Source: Salinadaptatus halalkaliphilus
GTDB lineage: Archaea; Halobacteriota; Halobacteria; Halobacteriales; Natrialbaceae
Assembly: GCF_006543045.1 (NCBI RefSeq)
Contig: NZ_RBZW01000021.1
Location: 62,001-126,000 of the forward strand
Direction of reading: 5' to 3'
Length of the DNA stretch: 64,000 nt
Shown here piece by piece: positions 45,210 to 64,000 of this stretch. The position numbers and the translations under genes are program-made. A model generated the notes under the pieces. It was not told the DNA's origin and ran no database searches. It was given only the letters and a program-made list of their open reading frames with translations. Each line of letters starts with the position of its first letter. Within the stretch, counting starts at the first letter, position 1.

Positions 45210-46288
45210 TGTACCGGGAGCACTCGATCGGCGTCGTCGTCCCCGCGTACAACGAAGCGGGTTTTATCGGCGACGTAATCCAGGCGATGCCAGCCTACGT
45301 CGATGCGATATACGTCATCGACGACTGTTCGACCGATAGCACCTGGGACGAGATCCAGGAAGCCGCTCGAGCGGACGCTGCCCAACAGGTCGATCCGCCC
45401 CTCGAGTACGAGACGATGGCGGACGACGAGGCACAACTCCTCTCGGACGGTGGCACGTCACGACTCGACGAACGGGCGACCGTACACGAGCCTATCGGTC
45501 GGGTCACACCGCTTCGACACCACGAAAATATCGGCGCCGGCGGCGCGATCAAAACAGGCTATCTGGCCACGCTCGAGGACGGGATCGATGTCACGGTGAC
45601 CGTCGACGGCGACGGCCAGATGGATCTCGCCCAGATGAGCCGGTTGCTCGATCCGATCGTCGAGGGAGACGCCGATTACGCGAAAGGCAACCGGTTGCTG
45701 TACAGAGAGTACCGGAAAGCGATGCCGACCTTCCGGTTCGTCGGTAATACGGCGCTGACGTTCTTGACGAAAATAGCCAGTGGGTACTGGAAGACGATGG
45801 ATCCACAGAACGGGTATACGGCGATTTCCAAGCGCGCATTAACCGCCGTCGACGTCGGCTCGTTGTACGAATATTACGGCTACTGCAACGATCTGCTCGT
45901 GAAACTGAACGCCAGCAATATGCGCGTCGCAGACGTCGCGATGCCGGCCGTCTACGGTGAGGAAGAATCGAGTATCACGTATACGACATACATCCGAAAA
46001 GTATCGTGGATGCTGTTTCGGAACTTCTGGTGGCGGTTACAGTCGAAATACCTCGTCCGGGACTTTCACCCGCTTGTCTTGTTCTACCTCCTCGGCATTG
46101 GAACCGTCTGTCTCGGAGTGGCCACAGCGACGTGGTCGGTCTACTCGAGTGTTGTCTACGATTGGCAGCTATTCACGCCTATCGCGATCAGCGGACTGTT
46201 CGTCCTCGCCGGCACATGGAGCGTACTCACCGCAATGGAAGCGGACATGAAAGCGAACGAACCGAACGAGATGCAGGTGTTCGAATGA
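45209..46288 (+). CDS. Membrane-attached family 2 glycosyltransferase
   Basis: A 359-residue GT2 enzyme like dolichyl-phosphate sugar synthases. The N-terminal GT-A domain has IGVVVPAYNEAGFIGDVI, VIDDCSTDSTWDEI and the metal motif VTVDGDGQMDLAQM. An extra ~50-residue acidic insertion (about 55-105) separates the first strands. Two C-terminal membrane helices follow (LVLFYLLGIGTVCLGVATA; LFTPIAISGLFVLAG). It probably charges a lipid carrier with a sugar on the cytoplasmic face. It is coupled to both neighbours. Confidence 0.9.
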   Translation: MYREHSIGVVVPAYNEAGFIGDVIQAMPAYVDAIYVIDDCSTDSTWDEIQEAARADAAQQVDPPLEYETMADDEAQLLSDGGTSRLDERATVHEPIGRVTPLRHHENIGAGGAIKTGYLATLEDGIDVTVTVDGDGQMDLAQMSRLLDPIVEGDADYAKGNRLLYREYRKAMPTFRFVGNTALTFLTKIASGYWKTMDPQNGYTAISKRALTAVDVGSLYEYYGYCNDLLVKLNASNMRVADVAMPAVYGEEESSITYTTYIRKVSWMLFRNFWWRLQSKYLVRDFHPLVLFYLLGIGTVCLGVATATWSVYSSVVYDWQLFTPIAISGLFVLAGTWSVLTAMEADMKANEPNEMQVFE

Positions 46289-47316
46289 ACGTCGTCGTGA
46301 CGATTCAACATCCGGCACACGTACACTTTTTCAAAAACGCCATTCGTGAGCTGGCAGTCGACGAATCGGTGTACGTCTTCGTCAGAGAGAACGATATTGC
46401 GACCGACTTGCTGACCGAGTACGGCATCGAACACGAGGTGCTGGCCGGTCGCTCGGACTCGTTCTTGCAGCTGGCTCGCACGCAACTTCGCTACGAACGT
46501 CGTCTCCTCGAGCGGGCACGACAGATCGAGCCGGACGTGATGGCGGCGATCGGTGAACCCGGCGTTGCCCACGTCTCACGTGCCGTCGGGAGTACGAGTC
46601 TGGTCTTTACCGATACCGAACACGCCACGCTACAGAACGCACTGGCATTCCCATTTAGTCATCGGATCTACACACCGACCTGCTACAAGGACTCGATCGG
46701 CGACAAACAGATCGAATACCCCGGTTATCACGAACTTGCATACCTTCACCCCGAGCGGTTCGATCCTGACCCATCGATTCTATCCGAGATCGACGCGACC
46801 GAAGACGAGACACTCGTCATCATGCGACTGGTGTCGTGGGACGCCGCTCACGATGTCGGCAACAGCGGATTCGATGGCGTCCACGAAGTCGTGTCACGTC
46901 TCGAGGCAGAAGGTGCGCGGGTACTGATCACGTCGGAAAGTCGACTCCCGCCGTCGTTGGAACGGTGTCGGATCACCGTCGCGCCACACAGAGTACACCA
47001 TCTCATGTATTATGCGGATCTGTTTATCGGTGAGAGCCCGACGATGGCGACTGAAAGTGCGGTGCTTGGCACACCGGCGATATACATCTCATCGATCGAG
47101 CTGGGATACGTCGACGAGATCAGCGACGAGTACGGGTTGATCTTCAATTTCTATTCGGAGAACAGAGAGCACAATGGATTACGGAAAGCAGTAGCGATTC
47201 TGAGCGACGACTCGCCGACGAAGTGGGAACGGCGACGAGAGGCCCTCCTCGAGGCAAAGCTGGACACGACCTCGTTTATGCTCGACGAAATCTACAACGC
47301 GGGGCGATCGAAATGA
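46285..47316 (+). CDS. DUF354-family (GT-B-like) glycan protein
   Basis: A 343-residue protein, start ATG 46285, overlapping the upstream stop (ATGA). The pattern is DUF354: VTIQHPAHVHFFKNAIREL at the N-terminus and PHRVHHLMYYADLFIGESPT, then MATESAVLGTPAIYISSIEL in the C-terminal half, resembling the UDP-sugar-binding half of GT-B enzymes. Members occur in archaeal surface-polysaccharide clusters but lack a defined reaction. The next gene starts within its stop codon. Confidence 0.85.
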   Translation: MNVVVTIQHPAHVHFFKNAIRELAVDESVYVFVRENDIATDLLTEYGIEHEVLAGRSDSFLQLARTQLRYERRLLERARQIEPDVMAAIGEPGVAHVSRAVGSTSLVFTDTEHATLQNALAFPFSHRIYTPTCYKDSIGDKQIEYPGYHELAYLHPERFDPDPSILSEIDATEDETLVIMRLVSWDAAHDVGNSGFDGVHEVVSRLEAEGARVLITSESRLPPSLERCRITVAPHRVHHLMYYADLFIGESPTMATESAVLGTPAIYISSIELGYVDEISDEYGLIFNFYSENREHNGLRKAVAILSDDSPTKWERRREALLEAKLDTTSFMLDEIYNAGRSK

Positions 47317-48518
47317 GCGTACACAAACCAACCAGAACACGTCAGGACACATCGCCTGTCGGGAACAAGCTGCTCGTCATCGCACACAACTACAGTAACT
47401 TTACCAAAGGACAGATCGACGCGATCGCGGATCGGTTCGACACCGTGTTGGTAGCCGTCCGGTACAATCGCTTTACGGAGCTATCGGCAGTTATCGATTC
47501 GGATACGTTGAAAAAGTACGGTCGCGAGTTCAAAATCGCCGATTCGGCCCCCGAGAACGTCGAAATTGTCCCCATTCCGCTGACGTACGCGCCCGTCAGC
47601 ACCTGGTACAGATATCTCGGGAAACACCACTACTGGGCGACGAAGATGAAACTCGGTGGCCGACTGGAGACGTTCGATGTCGTCCACGCCCACTTCAGTT
47701 GGACCGCCGGATACGTCGCCACGAAACTGGCGACCGAATTCGACATGGAGAGTGTCATTACGGTCCACGAAAACGAGGATCGGCTCTACGACGAACTTCG
47801 ATCGGAAAACGACGATCTCTACTGGACGTGGGAAAACGCAGACGCCATTATCCGGGTCAACGAGAAAGATTGTGCGAAACTGGCCCGCTTCAACGATGAT
47901 ATCTACGCGATTCCGAACGGATACGATCGAGATCGGTTCCCGCTTCAATCGACTACGGATGCCAGAACACAACTCGGCGTGTCACAGGATGCCAAGATCG
48001 TCTTTTCGGTCGGGGGACTCATTCCCCGAAAGCGCTACCAGTTGCTGATTGAAGCGATAGCCGATACCAGTTCGTCGGAACAGGTGATCTGTGCAATCGG
48101 CGGACGGGGAAAGGAGCGAGCGGCCTTAGAAGACCTCGCGGAGACACACAGCGACGACGGCCTCGAGATACGGATCCTCGGATTCATTCCCGACGAAGCG
48201 CTCGCGGCTTGGATGAACGCGTGTGATATTTTCGCGCTCGCGAGCGAGTCAGAGGGGAACCCAACGGTGATGTTCGAGGCGCTTGGCTGTGGCAAACCCT
48301 ACGTCGGCACTAACGTCGGTGGCGTCGACGAGATCATCACCGAAGAGACGTACGGATTGCTCTGCGACCCGGACGACAAAGCGGCGCTTACGGACGTGTT
48401 ACAGCGTGGCCTCGAGAACGAGTGGGATCGCGATGCGATCCTCGAATACGGTCGCCAATACTCGTGGGACGATATCGCGAGTGACGTATACGATGTCTAT
48501 CGGGATGCTCAAGAGTGA
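47313..48518 (+). CDS. Family 4 glycosyltransferase
   Basis: A 401-residue GT-B enzyme, start ATG 47313 (ATGA overlap with the upstream stop). The acceptor domain has DVVHAHFSWTAGYVATKLAT and VITVHENEDRL; the donor domain has FSVGGLIPRKRYQLLIEAI, LGFIPDEALAAWMNACDIF and the GT4 glutamate motif ALASESEGNPTVMFEALGCG. It transfers a nucleotide-activated sugar to a growing glycan. It ends overlapping the ParB-like gene. Confidence 0.92.
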   Translation: MSVHKPTRTRQDTSPVGNKLLVIAHNYSNFTKGQIDAIADRFDTVLVAVRYNRFTELSAVIDSDTLKKYGREFKIADSAPENVEIVPIPLTYAPVSTWYRYLGKHHYWATKMKLGGRLETFDVVHAHFSWTAGYVATKLATEFDMESVITVHENEDRLYDELRSENDDLYWTWENADAIIRVNEKDCAKLARFNDDIYAIPNGYDRDRFPLQSTTDARTQLGVSQDAKIVFSVGGLIPRKRYQLLIEAIADTSSSEQVICAIGGRGKERAALEDLAETHSDDGLEIRILGFIPDEALAAWMNACDIFALASESEGNPTVMFEALGCGKPYVGTNVGGVDEIITEETYGLLCDPDDKAALTDVLQRGLENEWDRDAILEYGRQYSWDDIASDVYDVYRDAQE

Positions 48519-49245
48519 CTGCGTTCGGATCGTCGTCGGGGTAGCGGCGATCGTATCGCGATACAGCCTCAAATACGTCCGATTGGTACAGTGGTACTTG
48601 CTCGACCATTACCCCCACCCATTTCAGCGAATATACGTCGATCCTGCGAAGATACAGACGTACGGTGGGCGATTCACCAACAACCCATACCGGTACGGTG
48701 GGCGGTTCAGCCTCGCGTACTACGCAGGTGCCACAGTTCGGGGTGGACGGTGGGACAGGGACACCGAGTGTGTCACCGGATCGGCAAAATACAACGCCGT
48801 ATTCGATCGCTACGAACACGGCTGTCGCTGGGAAGAGACGGGAATCTACGACGAAATCAGCGAGCGGGCAGCCCGAACTGGCAGTTACGACGGCTGTACG
48901 ACGAGAGACGATATCGAGCGACGATACGAGCGCATCGATGCGCTGTACGAACGTATCAAGGCCGAGGGTTACGAAGACGACGGATCGCTGGATCAGGTCT
49001 GTGTGAACATCGGCCGCGACGGCGAGATCATGTTCAATGGAAACGGCAACCATCGGCTGTTCATTGCGAAGGTATTAGGAATTCGTGAAATCCCGGTTCG
49101 CGTTCTCGTTCGACACGAGCGCTGGATGCACAAACGAAAGCAATTTGTCGACGAGAGAGCAGCCGATGCGGAAAGCGAGGTCCACGCAGTCCGTGCCGAC
49201 CACCCGGATTTACAAGACCTGGCGCCTCGAGAACGGACCGATTGA
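48505..49245 (+). CDS. ParB/sulfiredoxin-fold-like protein in glycan cluster
   Basis: A 246-residue protein that starts inside the end of the glycosyltransferase gene (ATG 48505, or 48493 four codons earlier). The C-terminal part has a ParB-N-like signature: DQVCVNIGRDGEIMFNGNGN, HRLFIAKVLGIREIPVRVLV. The N-terminal half is rich in Tyr, Arg and Gly (YGGRFTNNPYRYGGRF). ParB-like folds can bind CTP or other nucleotides, so a kinase- or transferase-like role in glycan synthesis is possible but unproven. Confidence 0.68.
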   Translation: MLKSDCVRIVVGVAAIVSRYSLKYVRLVQWYLLDHYPHPFQRIYVDPAKIQTYGGRFTNNPYRYGGRFSLAYYAGATVRGGRWDRDTECVTGSAKYNAVFDRYEHGCRWEETGIYDEISERAARTGSYDGCTTRDDIERRYERIDALYERIKAEGYEDDGSLDQVCVNIGRDGEIMFNGNGNHRLFIAKVLGIREIPVRVLVRHERWMHKRKQFVDERAADAESEVHAVRADHPDLQDLAPRERTD

Positions 49246-49259
49246 TCGGATTTCCAGTA

Positions 49260-51038
49260 TCATTGACTATCTACGTAATAGGCCCTGAACTCACCGGACG
49301 AATGAATGCGGTGAATATTCGGATCGTGCTCGAGATACCTGAAGTCGTCGTCGGTGAATCGAAACCCCTGATACAGTTCCTGTTCGCGGCGTTCGTCGGC
49401 AGCACTGATCAGAAGATACGTATCAGTTGGGTAGAGGGCCGGCAGGTCCTGGCCGGCGAAATGGTCCGGGGCACCGCCGCGTCGAACGCCGTCGTGATAG
49501 TACTCCTGGCGGTCGCGTTCGGCGGGCCCGTGTATCGCGTGTCCGTAGCGACTCGCGTGCGATCGCACGTGATCGTAGGCGATACCCGTCTGTTCGTGCT
49601 CGAGGATCGTCCCGTACCCGTTCATATCCGCTTCGGTGACATGTTCCGTATCCTGATGGATGTAGCCCGAGGGGTGGACGATACCCAACGAGAGCACCAG
49701 AAAGACGAGCAGACACGGAACGAGGACGACGCGCGAGTCGATCGGCAGACGGGAAACCGTATACGCTCTGGTCGCGATCGCGCCGACGATTGTCACGATC
49801 ACCATCACGAACCCAGCAAAGCGAAAGAACATCGTCACTCGATTTGTCACGAGGAACAAGACCATCGCGCCACCGAGGGGGACGAGACCGACCATAGCGC
49901 TCACCACGGTGATGTCCCGGAACGCATCGCGTGGTGGGACTGTCCGGCGACGCCACAGCAGCCGAACGCTCCGATCGAGCGTATACACGGCTGCGACGAC
50001 GCTGACGACGAGACTCACCGAAAACAGTTTCAAAAAGAGGAGTCCGAGACTGCTGCCGAGTTCGCCCAACGACGACCCGCGTTGTGAGACCTCTCCCGCG
50101 GTCTCGGCGCCTTCGACCGTGTAGACGGCTAATCCGGAGACGAAGTTCGTAAACGAACTCTCGAACCGAATCCAGAGCCACGTCACTGCGCCGAGCACGA
50201 GTGACTGGCGAAACAATGCGGTGATGTCGCCGCGGTCGGTTGCGGTCAACCGTGTCATAGCCCACAAGAGTGCACCGACGACGGGCAAAAAGAACACGAG
50301 AACGACCGCGAACATCGGATGCAAGACGAGCACGACGCCACACAGCACCAGTGCGAGGAGGCGGCTTCGAAACGACTGCTCGAGTACCGACAGGGCGATC
50401 GTAAACAACACGAGCGGGATCACGAACAGTGCAAAATTTCGTGGCGACGCCTCGACGTGAATCGTGGCGTGATTGATCGGGAGCAAGAACGCGGCGAAAA
50501 ACACGCCAAGCGTCATCGCGCCAGGCCGGTGGTCGAGTCGGCGAACGAGAAGACCGACGAACAGGACGAAGATGCCGACGAACAGCGTCGAGATGAGCAT
50601 GAGTGACGTTCGAATCGGGATTCCGGAGAGCTGATGTAACCCATATGCGAACAGATGCGTTCCGGGGTACAACAACTCGGTCCCGTCCCTGGCACCGGCG
50701 CGTAACTCCCGCGTCCATCCGAGATGCGTCATCATGTCGCCTTCACCGAGGAAATGGTAGCCACGAAGGAGCGGGAGTGCAACGACGAGCAACACGGCAT
50801 ACACCACCGCACCGAGTGCCAGCCCGTTCGATCGCCCAGCCTCGAGGCGGGAGAGCGCGACGAACGTCCCGAGAACCAGGACAGTTCCGAGACATACCCA
50901 GAACGCCAGTGGTGTTTCACGATAGACGTTGAGTTCGTATCCCGTTGCTGGGTTCAGGACCGCCACCGCTGCGGCGACGCCACCGGCAAAGAAACACGCG
51001 ATAATCGTACTCTTGTACCGTCGGTCTCCGCTGTCCAT
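49260..51038 (-). CDS. Polytopic membrane protein, possible GT-C-type transferase
   Basis: A 592-residue protein with about 12-14 membrane helices in the first 460 residues and a ~110-residue hydrophilic C-terminal domain. An acidic motif in the first outer loop (YHFLGEGDMMTHLGWTREL) resembles the D/E-containing loop of GT-C glycosyltransferases and O-antigen-type enzymes. I cannot name a family. It faces the ParB-like gene tail to tail across 14 bases and is 186 bases downstream of the flippase gene on the same strand. Confidence 0.7.
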   Translation of the reverse strand: MDSGDRRYKSTIIACFFAGGVAAAVAVLNPATGYELNVYRETPLAFWVCLGTVLVLGTFVALSRLEAGRSNGLALGAVVYAVLLVVALPLLRGYHFLGEGDMMTHLGWTRELRAGARDGTELLYPGTHLFAYGLHQLSGIPIRTSLMLISTLFVGIFVLFVGLLVRRLDHRPGAMTLGVFFAAFLLPINHATIHVEASPRNFALFVIPLVLFTIALSVLEQSFRSRLLALVLCGVVLVLHPMFAVVLVFFLPVVGALLWAMTRLTATDRGDITALFRQSLVLGAVTWLWIRFESSFTNFVSGLAVYTVEGAETAGEVSQRGSSLGELGSSLGLLFLKLFSVSLVVSVVAAVYTLDRSVRLLWRRRTVPPRDAFRDITVVSAMVGLVPLGGAMVLFLVTNRVTMFFRFAGFVMVIVTIVGAIATRAYTVSRLPIDSRVVLVPCLLVFLVLSLGIVHPSGYIHQDTEHVTEADMNGYGTILEHEQTGIAYDHVRSHASRYGHAIHGPAERDRQEYYHDGVRRGGAPDHFAGQDLPALYPTDTYLLISAADERREQELYQGFRFTDDDFRYLEHDPNIHRIHSSGEFRAYYVDSQ

Positions 51039-51224
51039 ATACTGTTGTACGTACTAGTTCTCGTACTTTGATAAACCAATTATGGTACAACATTATCGAA
51101 GAAATGGGAAATATAATATTAGTCCACCGTTGCAACGAGTGTACTCGAGACGGCAGTCGGGTTGGAGCCCCGAAACCGATCGACGGATCGGGTATCGAGC
51201 AGCCAGGGGCGGATCAGACAGAAG

Positions 51225-52694
51225 TTATCCGGTGACGACCGAGACCGCGTCGTCGGGATCGACCAGTCCAACGAGGACCGACAGCACGGCCCAGACTGCC
51301 ACGCCGACGCCGACGACGAGCAACAGCGTAAACAAGCCCGTGATGAACTCGAGGGAGACGAAAACGACGACCGACATCACACCCGTAATGGCGACGATCC
51401 GTGTGAGTGTAGACAGCAGGGCTACGAGTCGAAGCTCGAGTTCGACGTGAATGAGGTACACGTTGAAGACCGTATAGATCCCGTGGGTGAGGACCGTCGT
51501 AATCGCTGCACCGGCGATTCCGATCACCGGAATCAACGCGACGTTCAGGCCGAAGTTGAGGGTCGCAGTCAGTCCCTTGGCGATCGCTCGATCTCGAGCG
51601 CGACCGAGAAAATCGAGGGCGTGGCCGGCGATGTTCATGATCGCACGAAGGACGATGTACGCGCTGAAAATCTGGAGAACGGGAACCGCACCGACGTAGT
51701 CGGGACCGAACACGAAACGGATCATCGGGTCGGAGACGAGGACGAGTCCGGCGGCGGCGGGGACGTAGATCAACAGCGAGTTCGTGACTGCGACTTCGAA
51801 CAGATCACGGGCGTGCTCGAGGTTGCCGTCTGCTTTTTCGGCGCCGAACGTCGGTGACAGCGTGAATCCGAGTGCGGTCATCGGCTTCTCGAGGAACTCG
51901 ATAGCCTGTTTGCTGATCGTGTAGTAGCCGACCGCGACCGGCGTGAGGAAGAAACCGATCAACACCGTATCGACCTGTTTTTCGATAACGGTTGCGGTGC
52001 TGGTTGCGGTCAACGGGACCGTGTACTCGGCCAGCCGACGCCGGAGGCCCGGTTCTGGCGGCTCGTCGGTGACCCGCGGTCGATAGTGTCGGGTATAGAC
52101 GAGGACGAATCCGATCACCGTTGCGACGACGTAGCCGAGAATGTAGCCGCCGAGTGCACCGACCGCGCCGTAGCTGGCAAGCACCAGTCCGATGCTGAAG
52201 ACCAGTCGCCCGCCGCGATTGATGCCGTGGACGACGGCGGCCGATTCAATGGCTTCGAACCCCTGTAACACAAGACGGACGTACTTCGTCAGCGTCCCGA
52301 AGACGACATAGAGGACACCCAGGAGGAGAAATGGGGCCAAATCCGGCTCGTCGACAAACTCGGCGAGCAGCTGGTGGCCAATCAGAAGGCCAACAGCGCC
52401 GATCGTGATCGTGATCGCGTTCAACAGGAGTGACGTCCGAACGATATGCGGGATCTGCGACGGGTCAGTTTCCTTGTACTCCGAGAGATATCGGCCGGCA
52501 GACCGCGCGATCCCGAGTTTCGTCAGGACCATCAGAATGGTGAAAATCGATATCGAGAAGAACAACAACCCGTAGGCATCCGGCTCGAGAAATCGGGCCA
52601 GCCCGACGAGCAACAGCGCACCCGACACAGCTGCGACCAGCTGCCCGAGCAGTTCGGTCTTGAACCGCGAGAGGATCGATCGTGTCGGTGGCAT
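51225..52694 (-). CDS. Polysaccharide/oligosaccharide flippase (MOP superfamily, Wzx-like)
   Basis: A 489-residue protein with 14 predicted helices and the N-terminal pattern of MOP flippases (LGQLVAAVSGALLLVGLARF, then LEPDAYGLLFFSISIF). It should move a lipid-linked oligosaccharide across the membrane, like AglR-type proteins in haloarchaeal N-glycosylation. It starts at ATG 52694, 27 bases after the epimerase gene, probably in one operon with it. Confidence 0.88.
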   Translation of the reverse strand: MPPTRSILSRFKTELLGQLVAAVSGALLLVGLARFLEPDAYGLLFFSISIFTILMVLTKLGIARSAGRYLSEYKETDPSQIPHIVRTSLLLNAITITIGAVGLLIGHQLLAEFVDEPDLAPFLLLGVLYVVFGTLTKYVRLVLQGFEAIESAAVVHGINRGGRLVFSIGLVLASYGAVGALGGYILGYVVATVIGFVLVYTRHYRPRVTDEPPEPGLRRRLAEYTVPLTATSTATVIEKQVDTVLIGFFLTPVAVGYYTISKQAIEFLEKPMTALGFTLSPTFGAEKADGNLEHARDLFEVAVTNSLLIYVPAAAGLVLVSDPMIRFVFGPDYVGAVPVLQIFSAYIVLRAIMNIAGHALDFLGRARDRAIAKGLTATLNFGLNVALIPVIGIAGAAITTVLTHGIYTVFNVYLIHVELELRLVALLSTLTRIVAITGVMSVVVFVSLEFITGLFTLLLVVGVGVAVWAVLSVLVGLVDPDDAVSVVTG

Positions 52695-52721
52695 CGAGTA
52701 GCGGACCTGAGTGAGAATTGA

Positions 52722-53687
52722 TTACGCGTTCGAAACCGGCGACACCGTCTCGAGGTCGGCCGCGAGATCGCTCGCGACGCGTCGAACTGCCTCGTCGCTG
52801 CTGTATGCGGGCTTCCAGCCCAGCGCAGACAGTTTCTCTATCGACAGTTGCATCTTCGGAACGTCGCCCGTCCAGCCGCGAGAGCCGCCGGTGTAGGAAT
52901 ACGTCGGATCGAGGTTCATCTCCTCGCTCACGATGTCAGCGATCCGATCGACCGAGGTCGTCGTTCTCGTCCCGAGGTTGAAAATCCGCATCGGGCCGGC
53001 CGAATCGGCCGTCCGTTCGATCGCGTGTTCGATCGCGTCGACGCAGTCCGAGACGTGCATGTACGACTTCTCCTGTCGGCCGTTACCGAGAATCGTCAGT
53101 TCCTGCGGATCAGCCGCGAGCTTCTCGACGAAATCCGGAACCACTCCGGCACCGAATCGAGGACCGACGACGTTTGCAAATCGGAAGCTCCAGACAGAGA
53201 TATTGCGAGTGTGTGCATAGACCGACAGCAGCGATTCCTCGGCGAGTTTCGCTGCGCCGTAGGCGCTGATCGGCTCCAGCGGGGCGTAATCCTCGGGCGT
53301 CGGACGGGGCGCTTCGCCGTAGACCGTCGACGACGAGGTAAAGGCGACGTTCGAAACGCCGACGGCGTCCATCCGTTCGAGAAGCGCGTGGGTCATGTCG
53401 ACGTTTTCGTCGAACTGCGTGCGCGGATCGTCGCTGTTGACGTACTTGTCGGCAACCGCACAGTGAAACACTGCGTCGACATCGGCCGTGACGGTCTCCT
53501 CGAGTGTCTCCCGAGTCGAAAGATCACCTTCGAGAAACGTCACGTCGTCGGGGACCGAATCCCGGACGCCGTTAGAAAGATCGTCGACGACGCGGATGTC
53601 GTTATCGGCCGCGAGTTGTCGAGCGAGACAAGAGCCGACGAGTCCCGCACCACCGGTAACGAGAATCGTCTTGTTCTCGAGATTCAT
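52722..53687 (-). CDS. NAD-dependent nucleotide-sugar epimerase/dehydratase
   Basis: A 321-residue extended short-chain dehydrogenase. Start ATG 53687 (MNLENKTILVTGGAGLVGSC), two codons inside the open frame. The NAD loop is TGGAGLVGSCLA; the catalytic set is SSSTVYGEA and the YxxxK in SAYGAAKLAEE; substrate-binding residues lie in RFANVVGPRFGAG. It belongs with GalE-like UDP-sugar 4-epimerases; the exact sugar is unknown. It heads a minus-strand operon with the flippase. AT-rich DNA with promoter-like runs lies just upstream. Confidence 0.9.
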   Translation of the reverse strand: MNLENKTILVTGGAGLVGSCLARQLAADNDIRVVDDLSNGVRDSVPDDVTFLEGDLSTRETLEETVTADVDAVFHCAVADKYVNSDDPRTQFDENVDMTHALLERMDAVGVSNVAFTSSSTVYGEAPRPTPEDYAPLEPISAYGAAKLAEESLLSVYAHTRNISVWSFRFANVVGPRFGAGVVPDFVEKLAADPQELTILGNGRQEKSYMHVSDCVDAIEHAIERTADSAGPMRIFNLGTRTTTSVDRIADIVSEEMNLDPTYSYTGGSRGWTGDVPKMQLSIEKLSALGWKPAYSSDEAVRRVASDLAADLETVSPVSNA

Positions 53688-53836
53688 ATACAATACTAAA
53701 TTTAGTACTGTATTACTCTTATGATTTCTTGAAGTGGTATTAGAATAGTATCTCTAAACCATTCTATAGTAATAGAAATTATTTATATTTTATATAAATC
53801 AGTGAGATTTATAAAGATTACGCGCGGATACTGTGT

Positions 53837-54052: not shown

Positions 54053-55264
54053 ATGGGTGGGGAATACAGTGCAGCGGAGGAGTTCATCATCGAGTGTACC
54101 CGGGCAGCGATCGACGACCGGACGGTATCTGCTGAGCGGTTTCAACCGGACCTAGAGTGGGACACCGTCGTCGAGCTGGCGGCGAAACACGGGATCAGAC
54201 CGATCGTGCTGGCGGCACTCGAGACGGGGTCGTCATCGGCGGTTCCGCCGGACGTTCTCGAGACGTTACAAGCGCAGGTGCGACTCATCACCCAGCGGAA
54301 TCTTCGACTGCTACAAGAAGTCGAATCCCTTTCGACAGCGCTTCGGGACGCCGGAATACGAGCGATACCGTATCGGGGACCAGTAGCGAGCGAGATCGTC
54401 TTTCGAAACGTCGGCTGGCGGGAGTTCGGCGATGTGGATCTGCTCGTCCCGCGAGCGGATATCCCAGCGGCCACGTCGATACTTCGAGCGCACGGCTACG
54501 AACAGCAGTACGTACTCGAGAGAACGGACGATCTCACCGATCGACAGCGGTGTGCCTACGCACGGTTCAGTCGCGACTACGCGTTCGAACACAGCTCCGA
54601 ACCGTTCGAAGTCGAATTGCACTGGCGGATCGTCTCTCAGCGATTCCCGACGGCGATTCGACTCGAGAGCGTATGGGATCGGCGGTCGACGCTCTCGGTC
54701 GCAGGGACGGACGTGCCGGTATTGGCCCCCGAAGATCGCCTCCTCACGTTGTGTGTCCACGGCACCCGCCACCGGTGGGAGCGACTCGTCTGGCTGTGTG
54801 ACGTTGGCGCGTATCTATCCCGCCAGTCGTTCGATTGGACGGCAGTACTGCAACGCGCCCGATCACATCACTGTGAACGAATGCTGTATCTCGGATTGGC
54901 GATCGCAAACGAACTCTTCGACGGCCCGCTACCCGATCGCGTTCGACGGGCAATCGAGGCCGATTCTGCCATCACCTCGCTGAAATCGCACGTCTACGAA
55001 CGGCTGTTCGACGATCAGTTACACTGGTATCTCGATATCAAGCGGTACCAGGCACGCACGCTCGAGCGACGGCGAGACAGAGCGGCGTTCTGGCTGAAAG
55101 GTGCCTTGATACCGGACCGAGGGGCAATCGAACTCGTCTCACTGCCCCGACCGCTCTTTCCGCTGTATTCGGCGGTTCGCTGTCTCCGAATCGGCCGGGC
55201 GGCCGCCGACCGACTCCGACCCGGAGGGCGCTCCCGGGTCGATTCACAGGGGACGAAGCGATGA
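54053..55264 (+). CDS. Nucleotidyltransferase-fold protein of the lasso-peptide module (NTP_transf_5 type)
   Basis: A 403-residue protein of the PF14907-like nucleotidyltransferase group. The nucleotidyltransferase core has IPYRGPVASEIVFRNVGWRE, the metal aspartates in FGDVDLLVPRADI, and EVELHWRIVSQRF; the helical C-terminal half has CVHGTRHRWERLVWLCDVGA. Genes of this type accompany HPr-kinase-like enzymes in some bacterial lasso clusters (for example paeninodin and pseudomycoidin), where the partner acts on the phosphorylated C-terminus. It starts at ATG 54053, and its stop overlaps the ABC exporter start (ATGA). Confidence 0.85.
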   Translation: MGGEYSAAEEFIIECTRAAIDDRTVSAERFQPDLEWDTVVELAAKHGIRPIVLAALETGSSSAVPPDVLETLQAQVRLITQRNLRLLQEVESLSTALRDAGIRAIPYRGPVASEIVFRNVGWREFGDVDLLVPRADIPAATSILRAHGYEQQYVLERTDDLTDRQRCAYARFSRDYAFEHSSEPFEVELHWRIVSQRFPTAIRLESVWDRRSTLSVAGTDVPVLAPEDRLLTLCVHGTRHRWERLVWLCDVGAYLSRQSFDWTAVLQRARSHHCERMLYLGLAIANELFDGPLPDRVRRAIEADSAITSLKSHVYERLFDDQLHWYLDIKRYQARTLERRRDRAAFWLKGALIPDRGAIELVSLPRPLFPLYSAVRCLRIGRAAADRLRPGGRSRVDSQGTKR

Positions 55265-57087
55265 GCGAGCCACAGCCGACCCTCCGTCACAAACTCCAGG
55301 CGCTGCGACGGGTCGCCGGCTACCGTCCGGTCTACGCAGTCACGATTCTTCTGTGCAAACTCGTGGCGGCGCTGTTCGAGGGGATCGGCCTCGTATTACT
55401 GCTGCCGATTATCGAGTTCGCGATGGCCGATGGGGACGCCGGCGGGGAGACCTCACAGATTGCGACATACTTCATCCAGGCCTACGAGCTCGTCGGCGTT
55501 CCGGCCACGCTCGAGACGCTGTTGCTCGGTCTCGCAGCGGTGATTACGCTCCGATACACCATCAGCTTCTGTATCGGCTGGTTGCAGGCATCGCTTGCTG
55601 TGGCGTATATGGCCGATCTCAGACGGCGAGCCTACGAAAATCTCCTGGCTGCAGACATCGCCTACGTCGACGAACAAGACGGCGACGAGATCGTCAACAC
55701 GATCGTCACCGAGATCCGGGCCTCTGCCCGAGTCATCGGGGAGATCCTCGGTGCCGTCGAGAAACTCCTGTTCGCGATCGTCTACACAACAGTGGCGCTC
55801 GTGTTGTCACCCGTACTGACGATCACGTCCGTGCTGGTGCTCGCGCTCGTCGCGGTGTCGACCCGGTACGGTCTCGATACCGGGTACGGTATCGGCGATC
55901 AGTTGGCAAAAGCCAACGAAGAGATTCAATCGCACGTCAACGCCGGCACGCGTGGCTTGCGTGAGATCAAGCTCTTCAACATGGAGTCCACCCTCAATCG
56001 GGAGTTCGACCGGGCGCACGATCGCCTCGTCGATACCCGGGTCCGACTCGAGCGAAACCAGATGGCACTATCGAATTTTAACCAGTTGCTCAACGCGTTC
56101 GTCGTCTTCGCGCTCGTCTATCTCGCGATCGAGTATCTCGCCCTCGAGTTTGCGACGCTTGGCACGTTTCTGTTTGCGATCTACAGACTCTCACCGCTCG
56201 TGAGCCGGCTCAACAACACGCTGTACTCGATCGACGGTGCGCTCCCCCACCTCGTACGTGCCCAGACGCTCATTGGGAAACTTGATGATCACGCCGATAC
56301 GGCCGGCACAGAACCGGCACCAACACCCACGACGACGGTAACGGCCGACGACGTGAGCTTTCGGTACGACGACGACGCGGAGGGGACCGATGTCACCAAC
56401 GTCTCGCTTCGCGTCGAGCGCGGGGAAACGATCGCACTCGTCGGCCCGTCCGGCGCCGGCAAATCGACGATCGTTTCGTTGCTCGCCCGCCTGTACGACC
56501 CCGACGACGGACGCATCTACGCAAACGGCGTGGCACTCGACAGTATCGACCTCGAGTCCTGGCACGAACGCGTCACTGTCGTCCCACAACAACCGTTTTT
56601 GTTCAACGAGACGCTGCGATACAACGTCACGATCGGCGATCCAGACGCCAGCGACGACGCGGTCGAACGCGCGTGTAACCGAAGCCAAGTGACGGCGTTT
56701 CTCGAGGAGTTACCCGAGGGGCTCGATACCGAACTCGGCGACGACGGCGTCCGGCTCTCGGGTGGCCAGCGCCAACGAATCGCCATCGCCCGGGCGTTGC
56801 TCGCCGATGCCGACGTCTTGATACTCGACGAGGCGACGAGCGAACTCGATTCGCCGACCGAGAAAGCGATCCTCGAGGGGATCGACGCGATGGATCGCGA
56901 CTACGCGACGATCGTCATCGGCCACTGGCTGTCGACGGTCAAAGACGCTGACCGAATTTACACCGTCGTCGACGGCCGGATCGTCGAATCGGGAACCCAT
57001 CAGGAACTGCTCGCAGCGGACACACAGTACGCCGAGCTGTACGGCTCACAGATAGCGGCGACTGCCCCGTCCCGCGAAGGATGGTGA
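55261..57087 (+). CDS. ABC exporter (half transporter), probable lasso-peptide exporter
   Basis: A 608-residue protein with an N-terminal six-helix membrane domain (about 20-320) and a C-terminal ATPase. ATPase motifs: Walker A VGPSGAGKSTIVSLLA, Q-loop VVPQQPFLFNE, signature LSGGQRQRIAIARAL, Walker B VLILDEATSELDS and H-loop VIGHWLS. It should dimerise. Lasso clusters typically contain one such exporter for product secretion and self-protection, and its place between the nucleotidyltransferase (4-base overlap) and the cyclase (7-base gap) supports this role. Confidence 0.9.
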   Translation: MSEPQPTLRHKLQALRRVAGYRPVYAVTILLCKLVAALFEGIGLVLLLPIIEFAMADGDAGGETSQIATYFIQAYELVGVPATLETLLLGLAAVITLRYTISFCIGWLQASLAVAYMADLRRRAYENLLAADIAYVDEQDGDEIVNTIVTEIRASARVIGEILGAVEKLLFAIVYTTVALVLSPVLTITSVLVLALVAVSTRYGLDTGYGIGDQLAKANEEIQSHVNAGTRGLREIKLFNMESTLNREFDRAHDRLVDTRVRLERNQMALSNFNQLLNAFVVFALVYLAIEYLALEFATLGTFLFAIYRLSPLVSRLNNTLYSIDGALPHLVRAQTLIGKLDDHADTAGTEPAPTPTTTVTADDVSFRYDDDAEGTDVTNVSLRVERGETIALVGPSGAGKSTIVSLLARLYDPDDGRIYANGVALDSIDLESWHERVTVVPQQPFLFNETLRYNVTIGDPDASDDAVERACNRSQVTAFLEELPEGLDTELGDDGVRLSGGQRQRIAIARALLADADVLILDEATSELDSPTEKAILEGIDAMDRDYATIVIGHWLSTVKDADRIYTVVDGRIVESGTHQELLAADTQYAELYGSQIAATAPSREGW

Positions 57088-59026: not shown

Positions 59027-59158
59027 ATGAGTGAGTACGAAATACCCGCGATCGTCGAACTCGGCGCCGTCGAAGAACTCACCGAGGGGCAACACTTCTC
59101 GCGTGTCGATGGAAACTCGGGAACGACGGGCAACCGCGGTCATCGACGAGGCACCTAA
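59027..59158 (+). CDS. Lasso-peptide precursor A
   Basis: A 43-residue precursor. The leader carries the RRE-recognition pattern Y-x-x-P-x-[LIV]-x-x-x-G as YEIPAIVELG, then AVEELTE, with threonine at position -2 of the expected cut. The 23-residue core begins GQHFSRVDGNSG; Gly1 and Asp8 would form an 8-residue ring threaded by a 15-residue tail that ends GHRRGT. The core is basic, which is unusual in an acidic haloarchaeal proteome. It starts at ATG 59027, in AT-rich DNA directly after the cyclase, and is followed by two HPr-kinase-like genes. Ring size and cut site are inferred from the rules of known lasso peptides. Confidence 0.85.
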   Translation: MSEYEIPAIVELGAVEELTEGQHFSRVDGNSGTTGNRGHRRGT

Positions 59159-59212: not shown

Positions 59213-60136
59213 ATGACTGGGTGCCGGTACTACGAAGCGTTCGGTCGATTGATCGTTGCCGACCGGTCGCTCCCGCTAACACGGATACCGTCGACCGAAC
59301 CGCATCGTGAGACGAGCCAGCAAGACAGTATCCGAGTCACACGCGGTGGCGTTCCAGCGAGCCCCGACGGCATCGAACGGTCGCTCGAGCAGGTGTATAC
59401 CGACTCGAGCGGCAATCTCGAGGGATACGTCGATGGCGACGTCTGTTACTGGTTCGACACAGCCGTCGGCTCGCTGTGCGTTCGTCGCGGGCATACTGTC
59501 ACCGTCTGGACACGGACGACGGGAGCAATGCGAGCACTCGAGCAGTTTATCGTCGGGCCGGGGCTGCGCACTGCCGTTGCCCACCAGGGAGCGTTCGTCC
59601 TCCACGCCGGTGCAGTCGCAATCGACGGGCGGGCGATCGTGTTTCTTGGACCATCCGGGCGCGGGAAGTCGACTGCCGTCGCTGCGTGTGCCAAATGCGG
59701 TCACACCGTTTTGGCAGATGATGCGGCGGCGATTGCCTGTCGGTCGGGTGAGCCAGTCGTCCTCCCAAGCGCGTCCCGTCCTGCTATCGACGACGAAACC
59801 CGGAGGGCACTCGAGCGTACTATCGGAACCGACGAGTCGAGACGCCCGACCGAACGGATGGCCAACGGCCGCCAGCCGGTGCCGCTCGCCGCAGTCCTGT
59901 TGCTCGAAGATGGCGACCGGTTCGATCGGACGACGCTGTCGCCCCCTCGAGGGGCGTTCGAACTGTTACGCGCGACGGATACGCTCGTCCCGGATCTCGA
60001 CCGGTCGACGCTCGACGCCCGGACGGCAACCGCAGGCGAGATTGCTGGCGCCGTCCCGGTCGAGCGAGTCGTCCGCCCGCGATCGCTCGCACGGATGGAC
60101 ACGTTCGTGACTCGCCTCGAGGCGACGGTTGGGTGA
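59213..60136 (+). CDS. HPr-kinase-like protein 1 of the lasso module
   Basis: A 307-residue protein. The C-terminal ~190 residues resemble the HPr kinase/phosphorylase catalytic fold: FVLHAGAVAIDGRAIVFLG, then the P-loop GPSGRGKSTAVA, and TVLADDAAAIA as the acidic strand. The N-terminal ~110 residues are a poorly conserved beta region. In bacterial lasso clusters such proteins (ThcoK, PadeK) phosphorylate the C-terminal Ser of the precursor; precursor A ends in Thr. It starts 54 bases after precursor A. No phosphotransferase system is present to suggest the classical HPr role. Confidence 0.82.
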   Translation: MTGCRYYEAFGRLIVADRSLPLTRIPSTEPHRETSQQDSIRVTRGGVPASPDGIERSLEQVYTDSSGNLEGYVDGDVCYWFDTAVGSLCVRRGHTVTVWTRTTGAMRALEQFIVGPGLRTAVAHQGAFVLHAGAVAIDGRAIVFLGPSGRGKSTAVAACAKCGHTVLADDAAAIACRSGEPVVLPSASRPAIDDETRRALERTIGTDESRRPTERMANGRQPVPLAAVLLLEDGDRFDRTTLSPPRGAFELLRATDTLVPDLDRSTLDARTATAGEIAGAVPVERVVRPRSLARMDTFVTRLEATVG

Positions 60137-60233: not shown

Positions 60234-61154
60234 ATGTATCGGTACACCGCGTATGGGTTGACGATCCGATCGGCGTTCGAACTGCCGGAACTGCCGCGGA
60301 TCGACGATGGGCTGCCGGCCGACATCGTCTTTCGGCGCGACGATGTCGATCCCGTTCCCCAGTCGGTAGCGGGGACCGGTCGACGACGTATCCAGGCTGA
60401 GCCCGGTCGCTGCAGGTTCAGCTACGATGGAATCGGCTCCTTTCTCGTCGAGCACGGACACCAGGTGAGCTTCCAGCCAGCGACCCAACCAGCATCGGTG
60501 ACGAAGCCCCGAAAGATCGTGCGCCGACTCTTCGCAAACGAGATGCTTGGACTGGTGCTCCATCAGCGCGGCGATCTGGTCCTCCACGCCAGCGCGGTTG
60601 CAGTCGATGGCAACGCAGCGCTCTTTCTCGGCCCGAAGGGTGCCGGTAAATCGACGACGGCGGTTGCCTTTCACGAACACGGCTATCCAGTGCTCGAAGA
60701 CGACCTCGTGGGGATTCGATTCGACGGCAGCCAACCGATGGTCGTTCCCGGCGTCCCACAGGTTCGATTACTCCCGGATGCCATCGATGGGCTCAAGGTC
60801 GACGGGACGACGCGACCCGCAAGCGACGCCGATTCGGAGAAACGCTACAAACAGGTCACAACGACCCGCGATCCCGCACCAGTATCGCGGTGTTACTTCC
60901 TTCGGGACGGCACGGACCTCTCGTTCGAACCGGTTGCACCACGGTCACGAGTGGTTCGGCTCGTCTCCCAGACCTACACCGGCGGGCTCCTCGAGGACAC
61001 CGACGCGACCGCCGACAACTTTCGTCGCTGCACGGCGGTTGCAGAGACGGGGACGTTTCGAACGCTGTATCGACCGACGAACCACGACTCACTACCAACA
61101 CTCGTCGATCGAGTCGCAGCCGATCTCCGGTCGGGCGACACCACCGACCGATAG
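60234..61154 (+). CDS. HPr-kinase-like protein 2 of the lasso module
   Basis: A 306-residue paralogue of the preceding protein. It starts MYRYTAYGLTIRSAFELPEL, a beginning typical of this kinase group in RiPP clusters. Kinase region: LVLHASAVAVDGNAALFLG, P-loop GPKGAGKSTTAVAFHEHG, then PVLEDDLVGI. Two consecutive copies of such kinases are seen in some lasso clusters, where they may act in sequence or on different precursors. It is the last plus-strand gene of the module, 97 bases after its neighbour. Confidence 0.82.
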   Translation: MYRYTAYGLTIRSAFELPELPRIDDGLPADIVFRRDDVDPVPQSVAGTGRRRIQAEPGRCRFSYDGIGSFLVEHGHQVSFQPATQPASVTKPRKIVRRLFANEMLGLVLHQRGDLVLHASAVAVDGNAALFLGPKGAGKSTTAVAFHEHGYPVLEDDLVGIRFDGSQPMVVPGVPQVRLLPDAIDGLKVDGTTRPASDADSEKRYKQVTTTRDPAPVSRCYFLRDGTDLSFEPVAPRSRVVRLVSQTYTGGLLEDTDATADNFRRCTAVAETGTFRTLYRPTNHDSLPTLVDRVAADLRSGDTTDR

Positions 61155-61487: not shown

Positions 61488-61646
61488 CTAGACGATGGAG
61501 CCCGTGATCGGCGTGCCGACGGCTGCCGTTGCTTCGGTAACCGTATCTTCCGAGTCGCCCACCTTGTCGTTCTGGGTGAGTGATTCGACGGTCCCGTAGG
61601 TCGTTACTTCCGGTCGTTCGTATCGTGGTGATGTTCTATCGGACAT
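61488..61646 (-). CDS. Lasso-type precursor B
   Basis: A 52-residue precursor. The leader has YERPEVTTYG (Y-x-x-P-x-V-x-x-x-G), then TVESLTQ with Thr at -2 if the cut is after Gln25. The 27-residue core would begin NDKVGDSEDTVTEA and ends TPITGSIV. By the Thr -2 rule residue 1 is Asn, with Glu8 or Asp9 as ring partner; Asn1 is unusual, and a cut before Gly30 (giving Gly1-Glu9) is an alternative. It is 52 residues like precursor C and differs from it mainly in the core. It has its own TATA box at 61671-61682, ~28 bases upstream. Confidence 0.78.
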   Translation of the reverse strand: MSDRTSPRYERPEVTTYGTVESLTQNDKVGDSEDTVTEATAAVGTPITGSIV

Positions 61647-61727: not shown

Positions 61728-61886
61728 TTAGACGATCGAACCGGTGATCGAGACGCCGACATCGGCCGCCGCTTCCGTGACCGTATCTTCGGAGTTTCCG
61801 ATTTTATCGTTTTGCGTGAGCGATTCGACGGTCCCGTAGGTTGTCACTGTCGGCCGTTCGTACGAACGGGATGTGCTATCGGACAT
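61728..61886 (-). CDS. Lasso-type precursor C
   Basis: A 52-residue paralogue of precursor B in tandem 81 bases upstream. Start ATG 61886 (an adjacent ATG at 61889 is possible). The leader is YERPTVTTYG, then TVESLTQ; the core begins NDKIGNSEDTVTEA and ends VSITGSIV. Leaders of B and C are nearly identical while the cores vary at scattered sites, as in RiPP precursor families that diversify by duplication. A TATA box lies at 61911-61920. The longer in-frame reading upstream would start before the promoter and is rejected. Confidence 0.78.
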   Translation of the reverse strand: MSDSTSRSYERPTVTTYGTVESLTQNDKIGNSEDTVTEAAADVGVSITGSIV

Positions 61887-61942: not shown

Positions 61943-63841
61943 TCACGGTGACGATGGCATCGACCGAGTGGGCTGTCGGGGCGAACGCGCCTCGACCCAC
62001 GTCGACAGCGAGAGGGCACGCCACAGTGCACGCGCGTCACGACTCGAGGGATCGGCGTCGAACCGTTCGTACGCCACCCGGAGTTCGTCGGCGTCTAGAT
62101 AGCGTGCCAGCGGCCCGGGGTCGGCGACAAGGTCCTGCAATCGGTCGTCTTCGAGTGCCAGCGCGTTCCAAAAGGCTTCGTCCATCATCGTTTTCCAGGG
62201 GCGCGTTCGAATCGGCTCGGGTAACAGATCCTCGAGCGAGCGTCGAACGATCGCCCGCGTCCAGCCGTCGGCGAACTGCTGGGTTGGCGCCATCGCGAGC
62301 GAAAACTCGAGCAGTCGCTTGTCCGCGAACGGAGACCGCGGTTCGATACCGACCGCACCGTAACGCAGATCGATCGTCTCGAAGTTCGCGGCGTGGCGCC
62401 CCGAGGAAAGGGAGTAATACTGGCGCAGCCGATCGGTGCTCGAGACCCGAACCGAATCGGGCCCGGACAGCCGTTTGTATCGCGATCGAAGATCGATCCG
62501 GTCGACGAAGTCGGGATCGAGCGTCGGATTTGCGTTGGCTTCCAGTATCGGACGGCCACGCCGGTTGCGGTAGTGGCGACGGACCGATTCGGGAACCAAC
62601 GGTAAGAGGGCGTGACGGACGAACAGGTGGTGTGGCGGCGTTTGGAACACCTCCCCCATCGCACGGAGTTCCAGCCACATGTGTCGCCAGCGCCCAGTTC
62701 GAAACAGTTGCGGGATCACGCCCAACCCGTAGTTCGACGCACTGTCACCGAAGACGCCGTTGAGCACGACGTCGACGCCGGCCTCGGCCGCACGGTTCGA
62801 CTGTTCCCACACCGAAAAGTGCAGCGTGTTGTGTGGCGGTTTGTCGTAGTAGGACAGATACGTCGACGCGTCGGCCAGCGAGCCACGGCGATCCAGGGTG
62901 ACGTAGTGGGGGACGATGCCGTCTCGTTGGGTCACCAACTGGATGTACTCACGCTCGTCGCTCGAGGGGGCGTCGTCGTAGACGTTCGAGAACGTCTGTA
63001 GCGGTTGCTCTGCGGGCAACAGCTCCCGTGCGAGTACCGTCACCGCCGACGAATCGAGACCGCCGCTGAGTTCGGCCCCGACCTCGCCGGCGGTGCGGAG
63101 CCGACACCGAACCGCCTGCTCGAGCAGGTCGCGAAACCGTCGCTCGTAGGCCCCATCCGACGCGAGCGTGATCGTCCGTGAGGGGTCGAGTGACCAGTAC
63201 TGCCACTGCTCGACGCCATCGGCATCGACGGTCATGGCGTGGGCCGGCGGAAGTCGGGTAATCGATTCGTAGAACGAAAGCCGCTCGTCCTCGAGTCGCC
63301 CCGTCAAAAAGTCGCCGACCTTCCGTTCGTCGAGCGTGTCGTCGACGGTCGGCAGCGCCAACAGTCCTTTGAGCTCCGTACTGAACGCAAACGTCGTGGC
63401 GCTTCGGTGATAGTAGATGGGCTTGACGCCGACGTGGTCGCGGGCACAGAACAGCTGTCGACGGTCGGCATCCCAGATAGCGAACGCGAACGCGCCGACC
63501 AGCCGGTCGACACATTGGGGTCCCCACCGGCGGTACGCCGAACACAGCAGCTTACAGTCGGGAACCTGCGACGATGCGTTCGTAATTGACAGCGTCTCGA
63601 CCAACTCGGAGCGGTTGTCGAGACGAACGTCTGCAGTGACGATCAGGCCGTCGTCGTCGTACGGTTGTGTCGTCGCCTGCGGTGTCGCTGCCAACAACTG
63701 GTGACCGAATCCGACGCGCTCGTCACACCACTGCCCGCTCCCATCCGGCCCACGGTGTGCGAGCGACTCGAGCATCGATTCGACATCGACGGGGCCGACG
63801 GCCCCACCCGCCCGGTCGAAGACGCCGACGATACCGCTCAT
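61943..63841 (-). CDS. Lasso-peptide macrolactam synthetase 2 (asparagine-synthetase-like)
   Basis: A 632-residue paralogue of the cyclase at 57095. It begins M-S-G-I-V-G, again with Ser in place of the glutaminase Cys2, and keeps LAHRGPDGSGQWCDE. The ATP-pyrophosphatase loop is ELSGGLDSSAVTVLARE; other parts are LNGVFGDSASNYGLG, VGIEPRSPFADKRLLEFSLA and RTRPWKTMMDEAFWN. It starts with ATG 63841, overlapping the stop of the B2 peptidase gene (ATGA), and precursors C and B follow downstream. It should close the rings of B and C. Confidence 0.85.
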   Translation of the reverse strand: MSGIVGVFDRAGGAVGPVDVESMLESLAHRGPDGSGQWCDERVGFGHQLLAATPQATTQPYDDDGLIVTADVRLDNRSELVETLSITNASSQVPDCKLLCSAYRRWGPQCVDRLVGAFAFAIWDADRRQLFCARDHVGVKPIYYHRSATTFAFSTELKGLLALPTVDDTLDERKVGDFLTGRLEDERLSFYESITRLPPAHAMTVDADGVEQWQYWSLDPSRTITLASDGAYERRFRDLLEQAVRCRLRTAGEVGAELSGGLDSSAVTVLARELLPAEQPLQTFSNVYDDAPSSDEREYIQLVTQRDGIVPHYVTLDRRGSLADASTYLSYYDKPPHNTLHFSVWEQSNRAAEAGVDVVLNGVFGDSASNYGLGVIPQLFRTGRWRHMWLELRAMGEVFQTPPHHLFVRHALLPLVPESVRRHYRNRRGRPILEANANPTLDPDFVDRIDLRSRYKRLSGPDSVRVSSTDRLRQYYSLSSGRHAANFETIDLRYGAVGIEPRSPFADKRLLEFSLAMAPTQQFADGWTRAIVRRSLEDLLPEPIRTRPWKTMMDEAFWNALALEDDRLQDLVADPGPLARYLDADELRVAYERFDADPSSRDARALWRALSLSTWVEARSPRQPTRSMPSSP

Positions 63842-64000
63842 GGCCCGCCAATTTCGTCAAGCGGTGGCAGCGGTTCGAACCGCGAAAGGTCCTCGAGGTG
63901 TCCGATAAGAACCGACCCATCGTACTCGATCCAGCTGTGGGCTTGGAAACAGCCGCTCCCAGCTGCTGTGTCGTTTCCGTCGCTGGCCGTGTCGACGCCG
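63838..64000 (-). CDS. Lasso-peptide B2 leader peptidase (C-terminal end only)
   Basis: Only the last 54 codons are in the window. They read CFQAHSWIEYDGSVLIGH, then LEDLSRFEPLPPLDEIGG, which matches the end of B2/McjB-type transglutaminase-like proteases. Their catalytic triad includes the His of the H-[AS]-W-x-E segment seen here; the Cys part would be upstream, outside the window. The enzyme removes the leader before cyclisation. The stop overlaps the start of cyclase 2 by four bases, so the two are co-translated. It may also serve precursor A. Confidence 0.78.
   Translation of the reverse strand, partial: GVDTASDGNDTAAGSGCFQAHSWIEYDGSVLIGHLEDLSRFEPLPPLDEIGGP

Follow-up and report, generated by a model that had tools for sequence, protein, structure and literature searches.

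A putative class II lasso peptide precursor with a conserved core, encoded between a lasso cyclase and an HprK-like kinase in haloarchaea

The closest described systems are the paeninodin and pseudomycoidin clusters of Bacillota, in which genes are arranged in the order A-K-B1-B2-C-N-D. Lasso kinases described so far act on a C-terminal Ser and depend on an essential His-Lys-Asp-Asp motif (PMC9266682), and paeninodin clusters of Bacilli are often found beside capsular polysaccharide loci (PMC13381572). In archaea, lassopeptides are among the abundant RiPP classes recovered by antiSMASH genome mining (PMC12144867), a study of Halorubrum and Haloarcula mentions a lasso cluster of Halopiger (PMC10093198), and a passage in PMC7533575, citing Tietz 2017, calls Euryarchaeota underexplored for lasso peptides. 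The literature searched contained no description of an archaeal lasso product. Archaeal members of the class were reportedly also predicted by Maksimov et al. in 2012. Haloarchaeal lasso clusters, and a gene set of the paeninodin/pseudomycoidin kind, are already on record; new here are a conserved core family, an arrangement of two cyclases with one B1/B2 pair, a genome (G463) in which these are placed in trans, and a kinase whose partner peptide has no C-terminal Ser.

The stretch of DNA that we analysed (the window) comprises 64,000 nucleotides of the genome of Salinadaptatus halalkaliphilus. In common with the paeninodin and pseudomycoidin clusters, the lasso cluster found here has an HprK-like kinase with the H-K-D-D motif, a PqqD-like B1, a transglutaminase-like B2, an AsnB-like C, a nucleotidyltransferase and an ABC exporter (PMC9266682, PMC13381572). 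On the forward strand are encoded an NTP_transf_5 protein (54053..55264; PF14907, 222.7 bits), whose family name is the same as that of PsmN of pseudomycoidin, an ABC exporter that is the candidate D protein (55261..57087; PF00005 and PF00664), the 627-aa lasso macrolactam cyclase C1 (57095..58978; NF033535, 562 bits, cutoff 525), the lasso precursor A1 (59027..59158), its partner HprK-like kinase K1 (59213..60136; partial matches to TIGR04352 and Hpr_kinase_C), and a second HprK-like kinase, K2 (60234..61154), which belongs to the resident cluster and is conserved in canonical haloarchaeal lasso clusters. In C1 the SGGxDS ATP motif is intact as SGGIDSS and the glutaminase Cys is replaced (MSGI). 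On the reverse strand are two type-2 precursors, A2b (61488..61646; core near NDKVGDSED) and A2a (61728..61886; core near NDKIGNSED), whose matches to lasso_leader_L3 are below cutoff at 13.9 bits and just below it at 17.2 bits, respectively, and whose orthologues adjoin C2. They are followed by C2, the second, 632-aa lasso cyclase, of the resident cluster (61943..63841; NF033535, 602.6 bits, cutoff 525), and the leader peptidase B2 (63838..64000, cut by the window end and extending to about 64380, L003:12839-13381; NF033537, 86.8 bits, and PF13471). The RRE protein B1 (PqqD) is encoded just past the window end, around 64319-64636 (L003:13320-13637; PF05402, 75.2 bits). B2 keeps the motifs CLMRSL and AHSWIEYDG, which we take to be consistent with a cysteine peptidase triad. 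Ahead of the lasso cluster, the region 43866-53693 carries surface-polysaccharide-like genes, including those for an epimerase, a flippase, glycosyltransferases and a UDP-sugar dehydrogenase, in parallel with the proximity of paeninodins to capsule loci in Bacilli. The Halopiger cluster is likewise flanked by a flippase, and that of G463 by an epimerase.

A1 has an ATG start and encodes 43 aa before its stop codon; it begins 48 bp 3' of the C1 stop and ends 54 bp 5' of K1. A sequence-only reading of this DNA had proposed that the open reading frame at 59027-59158 carries YEIPAIVELG, Thr at -2, Gly1 and Asp8, and all of these were confirmed. The full product, MSEYEIPAIVELGAVEELTEGQHFSRVDGNSGTTGNRGHRRGT, is composed of a 20-aa leader, MSEYEIPAIVELGAVEELTE (59027..59086), with the Y-x-x-P RRE-binding motif, and a 23-aa core, GQHFSRVDGNSGTTGNRGHRRGT (59087..59155). 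Thr19 corresponds to position -2, Gly21 to core residue 1 and Asp28 to core residue 8; a Gly1-Asp8 isopeptide is predicted to form an 8-residue ring, leaving a tail of 15 residues with GHRRGT at its end, and the predicted mass of the ring-closed core is 2435.166 Da. Residues 4-22 score 24.3 bits against the curated NCBIfam model NF033521 (lasso_leader_L3), whose cutoff is 19. We also searched with a strict lasso motif, Y..P.[LIV]...G.{3,7}T.G.{5,7}[DE], to which A1 is the sole match among the 488 open reading frames of 25-120 aa in the window. A Pfam match of A1 to PEP-utilizers was discarded, as its 16.8 bits fall below the cutoff of 23.1 and the genomic context contradicts it. Just upstream of each precursor gene (59027, 61646 and 61886) there is an AT-rich, TATA-like stretch, which suggests that the precursor genes may have separate promoters.

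Searches with C1 as a query and with a precursor profile, covering several hundred genomes, recovered three further copies of A1, each located between C1 and K1, so that all comparisons below rest on four orthologues including that of the window. The identity of the accompanying cyclase to C1 of the window is 65% in G024, 57% in G014 (Natronobiforma cellulositropha) and 52% in G463; the last genome belongs to a different haloarchaeal family, while the other three share one. Leader-only profile matches in G198, G191 and G369 were not counted: inspection showed one to be a different short protein with a leader, one to have arisen by chance in a protein resembling a signal peptidase, and one to be a frame that holds no precursor. 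The precursor search in plasmids and phages and a search for the core DNA pattern in viral contigs gave zero matches, and thus a viral or listed-plasmid carrier is without evidence.

The four cores are GQHFSRVDGNSGTTGNRGHRRGT in the window and GRHFSRVDGNSGTTGNRGNGKGKKKGWW, GNHFSAVDGNSGTTGNRGRGNRGR and GRHFSRVDGNSGTTGNNGRGLGN in the other genomes. All four peptides share Tyr4, Pro7, Leu12-Gly13, Thr19 (-2), Gly21 (core 1) and Asp28 (core 8), and the ATG is aligned at the same place. The sequence-only reading had called for a comparison of this kind, and its proposal of a lasso precursor with a Gly1-Asp8 ring was supported: the leader scores above the NF033521 cutoff, a cyclase adjoins the gene, and both ring residues are kept in every copy together with Thr(-2) and Y-x-x-P. 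The consensus of core residues 1-18 is G-x-H-F-S-x-V-D-G-N-S-G-T-T-G-N-[RN]-G, in which only positions 2, 6 and 17 vary among the four orthologues; 16 of the 18 are invariant in the window, G024 and G014. Asp8 is the sole Asp or Glu in each core, and therefore the ring acceptor is fixed if C1 forms an isopeptide within the core. Cys is absent from all four cores. Pairwise comparisons of the 18 codons among the four orthologues gave 6-8 synonymous and 1-3 non-synonymous differences, and the NG86 dN/dS for the window, G024 and G014 is about 0.03-0.10, an approximate value given that it is derived from 18 codons with dS near or at least 1. The first 18 core residues are, as judged from these codons, under strong purifying selection. 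The leader and tail differ more among the orthologues than the nearly invariant core does, and this pattern suggests that the partner is conserved. We infer that such a core is matched to a fixed partner rather than being that of an arms-race antibiotic.

The A1 system departs from the paeninodins in several respects. The leader has Tyr (YxxP) in all four orthologues, whereas Trp is nearly invariant at this position of Trp-x-x-P in paeninodins; the peptide does not end in Ser; two cyclases and two precursor types are accompanied by a single B1/B2; and the host is a haloarchaeon. K1 carries the His-Lys-Asp-Asp motif of lasso kinases: when 22 K1 and K2 proteins are aligned, His131, Lys152, Asp169 and Asp170 do not vary. 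A sequence search of K1 against the PDB gave zero matches, and its AlphaFold model (pLDDT 86, pTM 0.85) matches the fold of HprK/P and the related PEPCK, with a best E-value of 5.5e-6. Since a C-terminal Ser, the site used in paeninodin-type phosphorylation, is absent from all four A1 peptides, the site of K1, if this kinase acts on A1, must be elsewhere; Ser5, Ser11, Thr13 and Thr14 are conserved candidates.

Genes for the NTP_transf_5 protein, ABC exporter, K2, type-2 precursor, C2, B2 and B1 recur in most of the other haloarchaeal genomes in which a close cyclase is present, although some genes have been lost or rearranged. Plasmid pHALXA01 of Halopiger xanaduensis SH-6 is included: it carries orthologues of each of these genes of the window's resident cluster, without the C1-A1-K1 trio and without the GxHFSxVDGNSGTTGN core. 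The type-2 precursor gene is absent from the incomplete gene table of the public record of this plasmid. The trio was found in only four of the genomes searched, including 3 of 125 in the family of the window; the A1 precursor is present in 1 of 146 genomes of the family of G463, and a cyclase of the C1 clade was not seen among 170 genomes of a third family. The C1 proteins of the window, G024 and G014 form a clade (support 1.0), as do the K1 proteins (0.994), and both trees branch as ((window, G024), G014).

All four genomes with the trio also carry a second, canonical lasso cluster. Whole-genome Pfam and NCBIfam searches gave a single B1 (PqqD) match and a single B2 match in each, at thresholds with which a very divergent B1 or B2 could be missed. 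In none of the four genomes is the trio accompanied by a B2 of its own, and in the window and G463 it also has no B1 of its own. C1-A1-K1 would thus form a transferable module that uses the B1 and B2 of the resident cluster. In G463, contig C3 carries the isolated trio; the sole B1 and B2 of this genome are part of the canonical cluster on contig C6. One B1/B2 pair thus probably serves two cyclases, a conclusion drawn mainly from this one unlinked case. The YxxP leader is common to the two precursor types, so a single RRE could bind them. Uniform sharing of B1 is contradicted by G024 and G014, where the only B1 adjoins C1 and belongs to a separate clade (0.992), but even here there is one B1 per genome. 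The B1 of the window adjoins B2 and groups with B1 proteins of canonical clusters (0.858). The simple interpretation is that there were formerly two B1 genes and that different lineages would have lost one or the other.

At the level of sequence, A1 is a genuine gene that follows the leader and core rules, is linked to C1 and K1 in all four genomes and is accompanied by a single B1/B2 pair per genome. It very probably gives rise to a class II (cysteine-free) lasso peptide, which would be closed by C1 with the help of the resident B1 and B2. The leader motif YEIPAI, Thr(-2), Gly1 and Asp8, the lack of Cys and the adjacent cyclase all agree with this class; B1 and B2 are found in the cluster just outside the window end in this genome, and elsewhere in the genome in G463. 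According to the proposed pathway, the Y-x-x-P of the leader would be bound by the RRE protein B1, and the cysteine peptidase B2 would cleave after Thr-Glu to expose Gly1. C1 would then adenylate Asp8 and close the Gly1-Asp8 isopeptide ring around the tail, and the product would be exported by the ABC protein. K1 probably phosphorylates a Ser or Thr of the precursor other than a C-terminal Ser.

The kinase next to A1 makes it conceivable that the product is a linear phosphorylated RiPP like the LPPs of Bacillota, with C1 doing another job or acting on another peptide. LPP and paeninodin clusters have B1, a kinase and a nucleotidyltransferase in common, and LPPs resemble the A1 system in the logic of RRE and kinase and in having a YxxP leader (PMC13381572). 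Haloarchaea also contain sets with B1, B2, kinase, NTP and ABC genes and no cyclase (L063, L069 and L070, see below). LPPs, however, are without a cyclase, while C1 adjoins A1 in all four genomes, even in the isolated trio of G463, and Gly1 and Asp8 are invariant at the right spacing, with Asp8 as the sole acid; we therefore consider a linear product improbable. A branched-cyclic peptide with the same Gly1-Asp8 ring and an unthreaded tail is another alternative to a lasso, given that threading is beyond the reach of sequence and that three of the four tails have no Trp, Phe or Tyr as a plug (that of G024 ends in WW). The lasso cyclase family folds and closes threaded products. C1 passes the lasso cyclase model NF033535, and Arg and His in the tail could serve as plugs, which leaves the unthreaded form with very little probability.

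That the lasso precursor is a real gene and not a chance or non-functional frame might be questioned on the grounds of its very small size and of the many spurious open reading frames in this GC-rich genome. This explanation was rejected as having a negligible chance of being correct: with residues shuffled within frames the strict motif is expected 0.007 times per window, the core changes little and mostly synonymously, and synteny is kept in four genomes. The sequence-only reading had also attributed a role to the tail, whose basic charge was thought to be aimed at an acidic target or membrane. The 15-residue tail ending in GHRRGT is present, and all four cores are net basic, each being rich in Arg and Lys (3-7) with one acidic residue. 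The amount and position of the charge are not conserved, however. After residue 18 the peptides read HRRGT (window), NGKGKKKGWW (G024), RGNRGR and RGLGN; the whole tails contain 3, 5, 4 and 1 Arg plus Lys, and the last residues are T, W, R and N. Conservation instead falls on the ring and on the GNSGTTGN that comes after it. It is thus unlikely that the basic tail is the active part, and a function based on it was rejected as the main conserved property.

It can be tentatively proposed, though we hold it to be somewhat doubtful, that C1-A1-K1 is a mobile satellite lasso module, whose cyclase, precursor and kinase move as a unit without a leader peptidase and which borrows B1 and B2 in trans from any lasso cluster present in the host. 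Its product would be conserved and phosphorylated internally, and would more likely act as a signal or at the cell surface than as a toxin that evolves fast. A1 is a good candidate for the first characterised archaeal lasso peptide and a precise target, since its 23-residue core has a fixed ring and a predicted mass and comes with the native enzymes. A single B1/B2 pair with two cyclases bears on whether precursors are sorted by the cyclase or by the RRE; such sorting with a common B1/B2 in turn matters for the ways in which cross-talk between RiPP pathways is avoided or exploited.

The type-2 precursors of the resident cluster were compared among homologues from the window (A2a and A2b) and from loci L024-L034, L045-L049, L061 and L068. 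They share a conserved [N/D]KxGxxxD block, whose distance from the leader Thr varies (about 1-6 residues), are mostly without Gly, Ala, Ser or Cys at Thr+2, and most end near GS[IV]. The usual rule does not assign their residue 1, which may be Asn1 or Gln1. Asn1 of metanodin (PMC12670498) is a possible parallel for A2a and A2b, which have Asn at Thr+2, while A1 has an ordinary Gly1. On contig C6 of G463 (L068:3-2741) two C2-type cyclases in opposite orientation and two type-2 precursors form one cluster, and this doubled arrangement is also present in G165 (L048).

Additionally, we observed haloarchaeal gene sets without a cyclase at L063:6765-11896 (G055), L069:7270-12244 (G202) and L070:7501-12664 (G180). 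They carry ABC, B1, B2, HprK-like kinase and NTP5 genes and a 32-aa precursor, MKEYETPSVETYGTVEEKTNWWDHDDGYGKW[SD], and no cyclase was detected within about 20 kb of them. LPPs have been reported as restricted to Bacillota (PMC13381572), and these sets are a possible archaeal counterpart. Finally, at L075:1501-1698 (G198:C2), about 36 kb from a lasso cyclase, a lasso-type leader, MKQYESPEVVELGDIDEVTD, is fused to a tail of Asp/Trp/Gly-rich repeats, DDDGWDWGWGDDDHDDWDWGWG.
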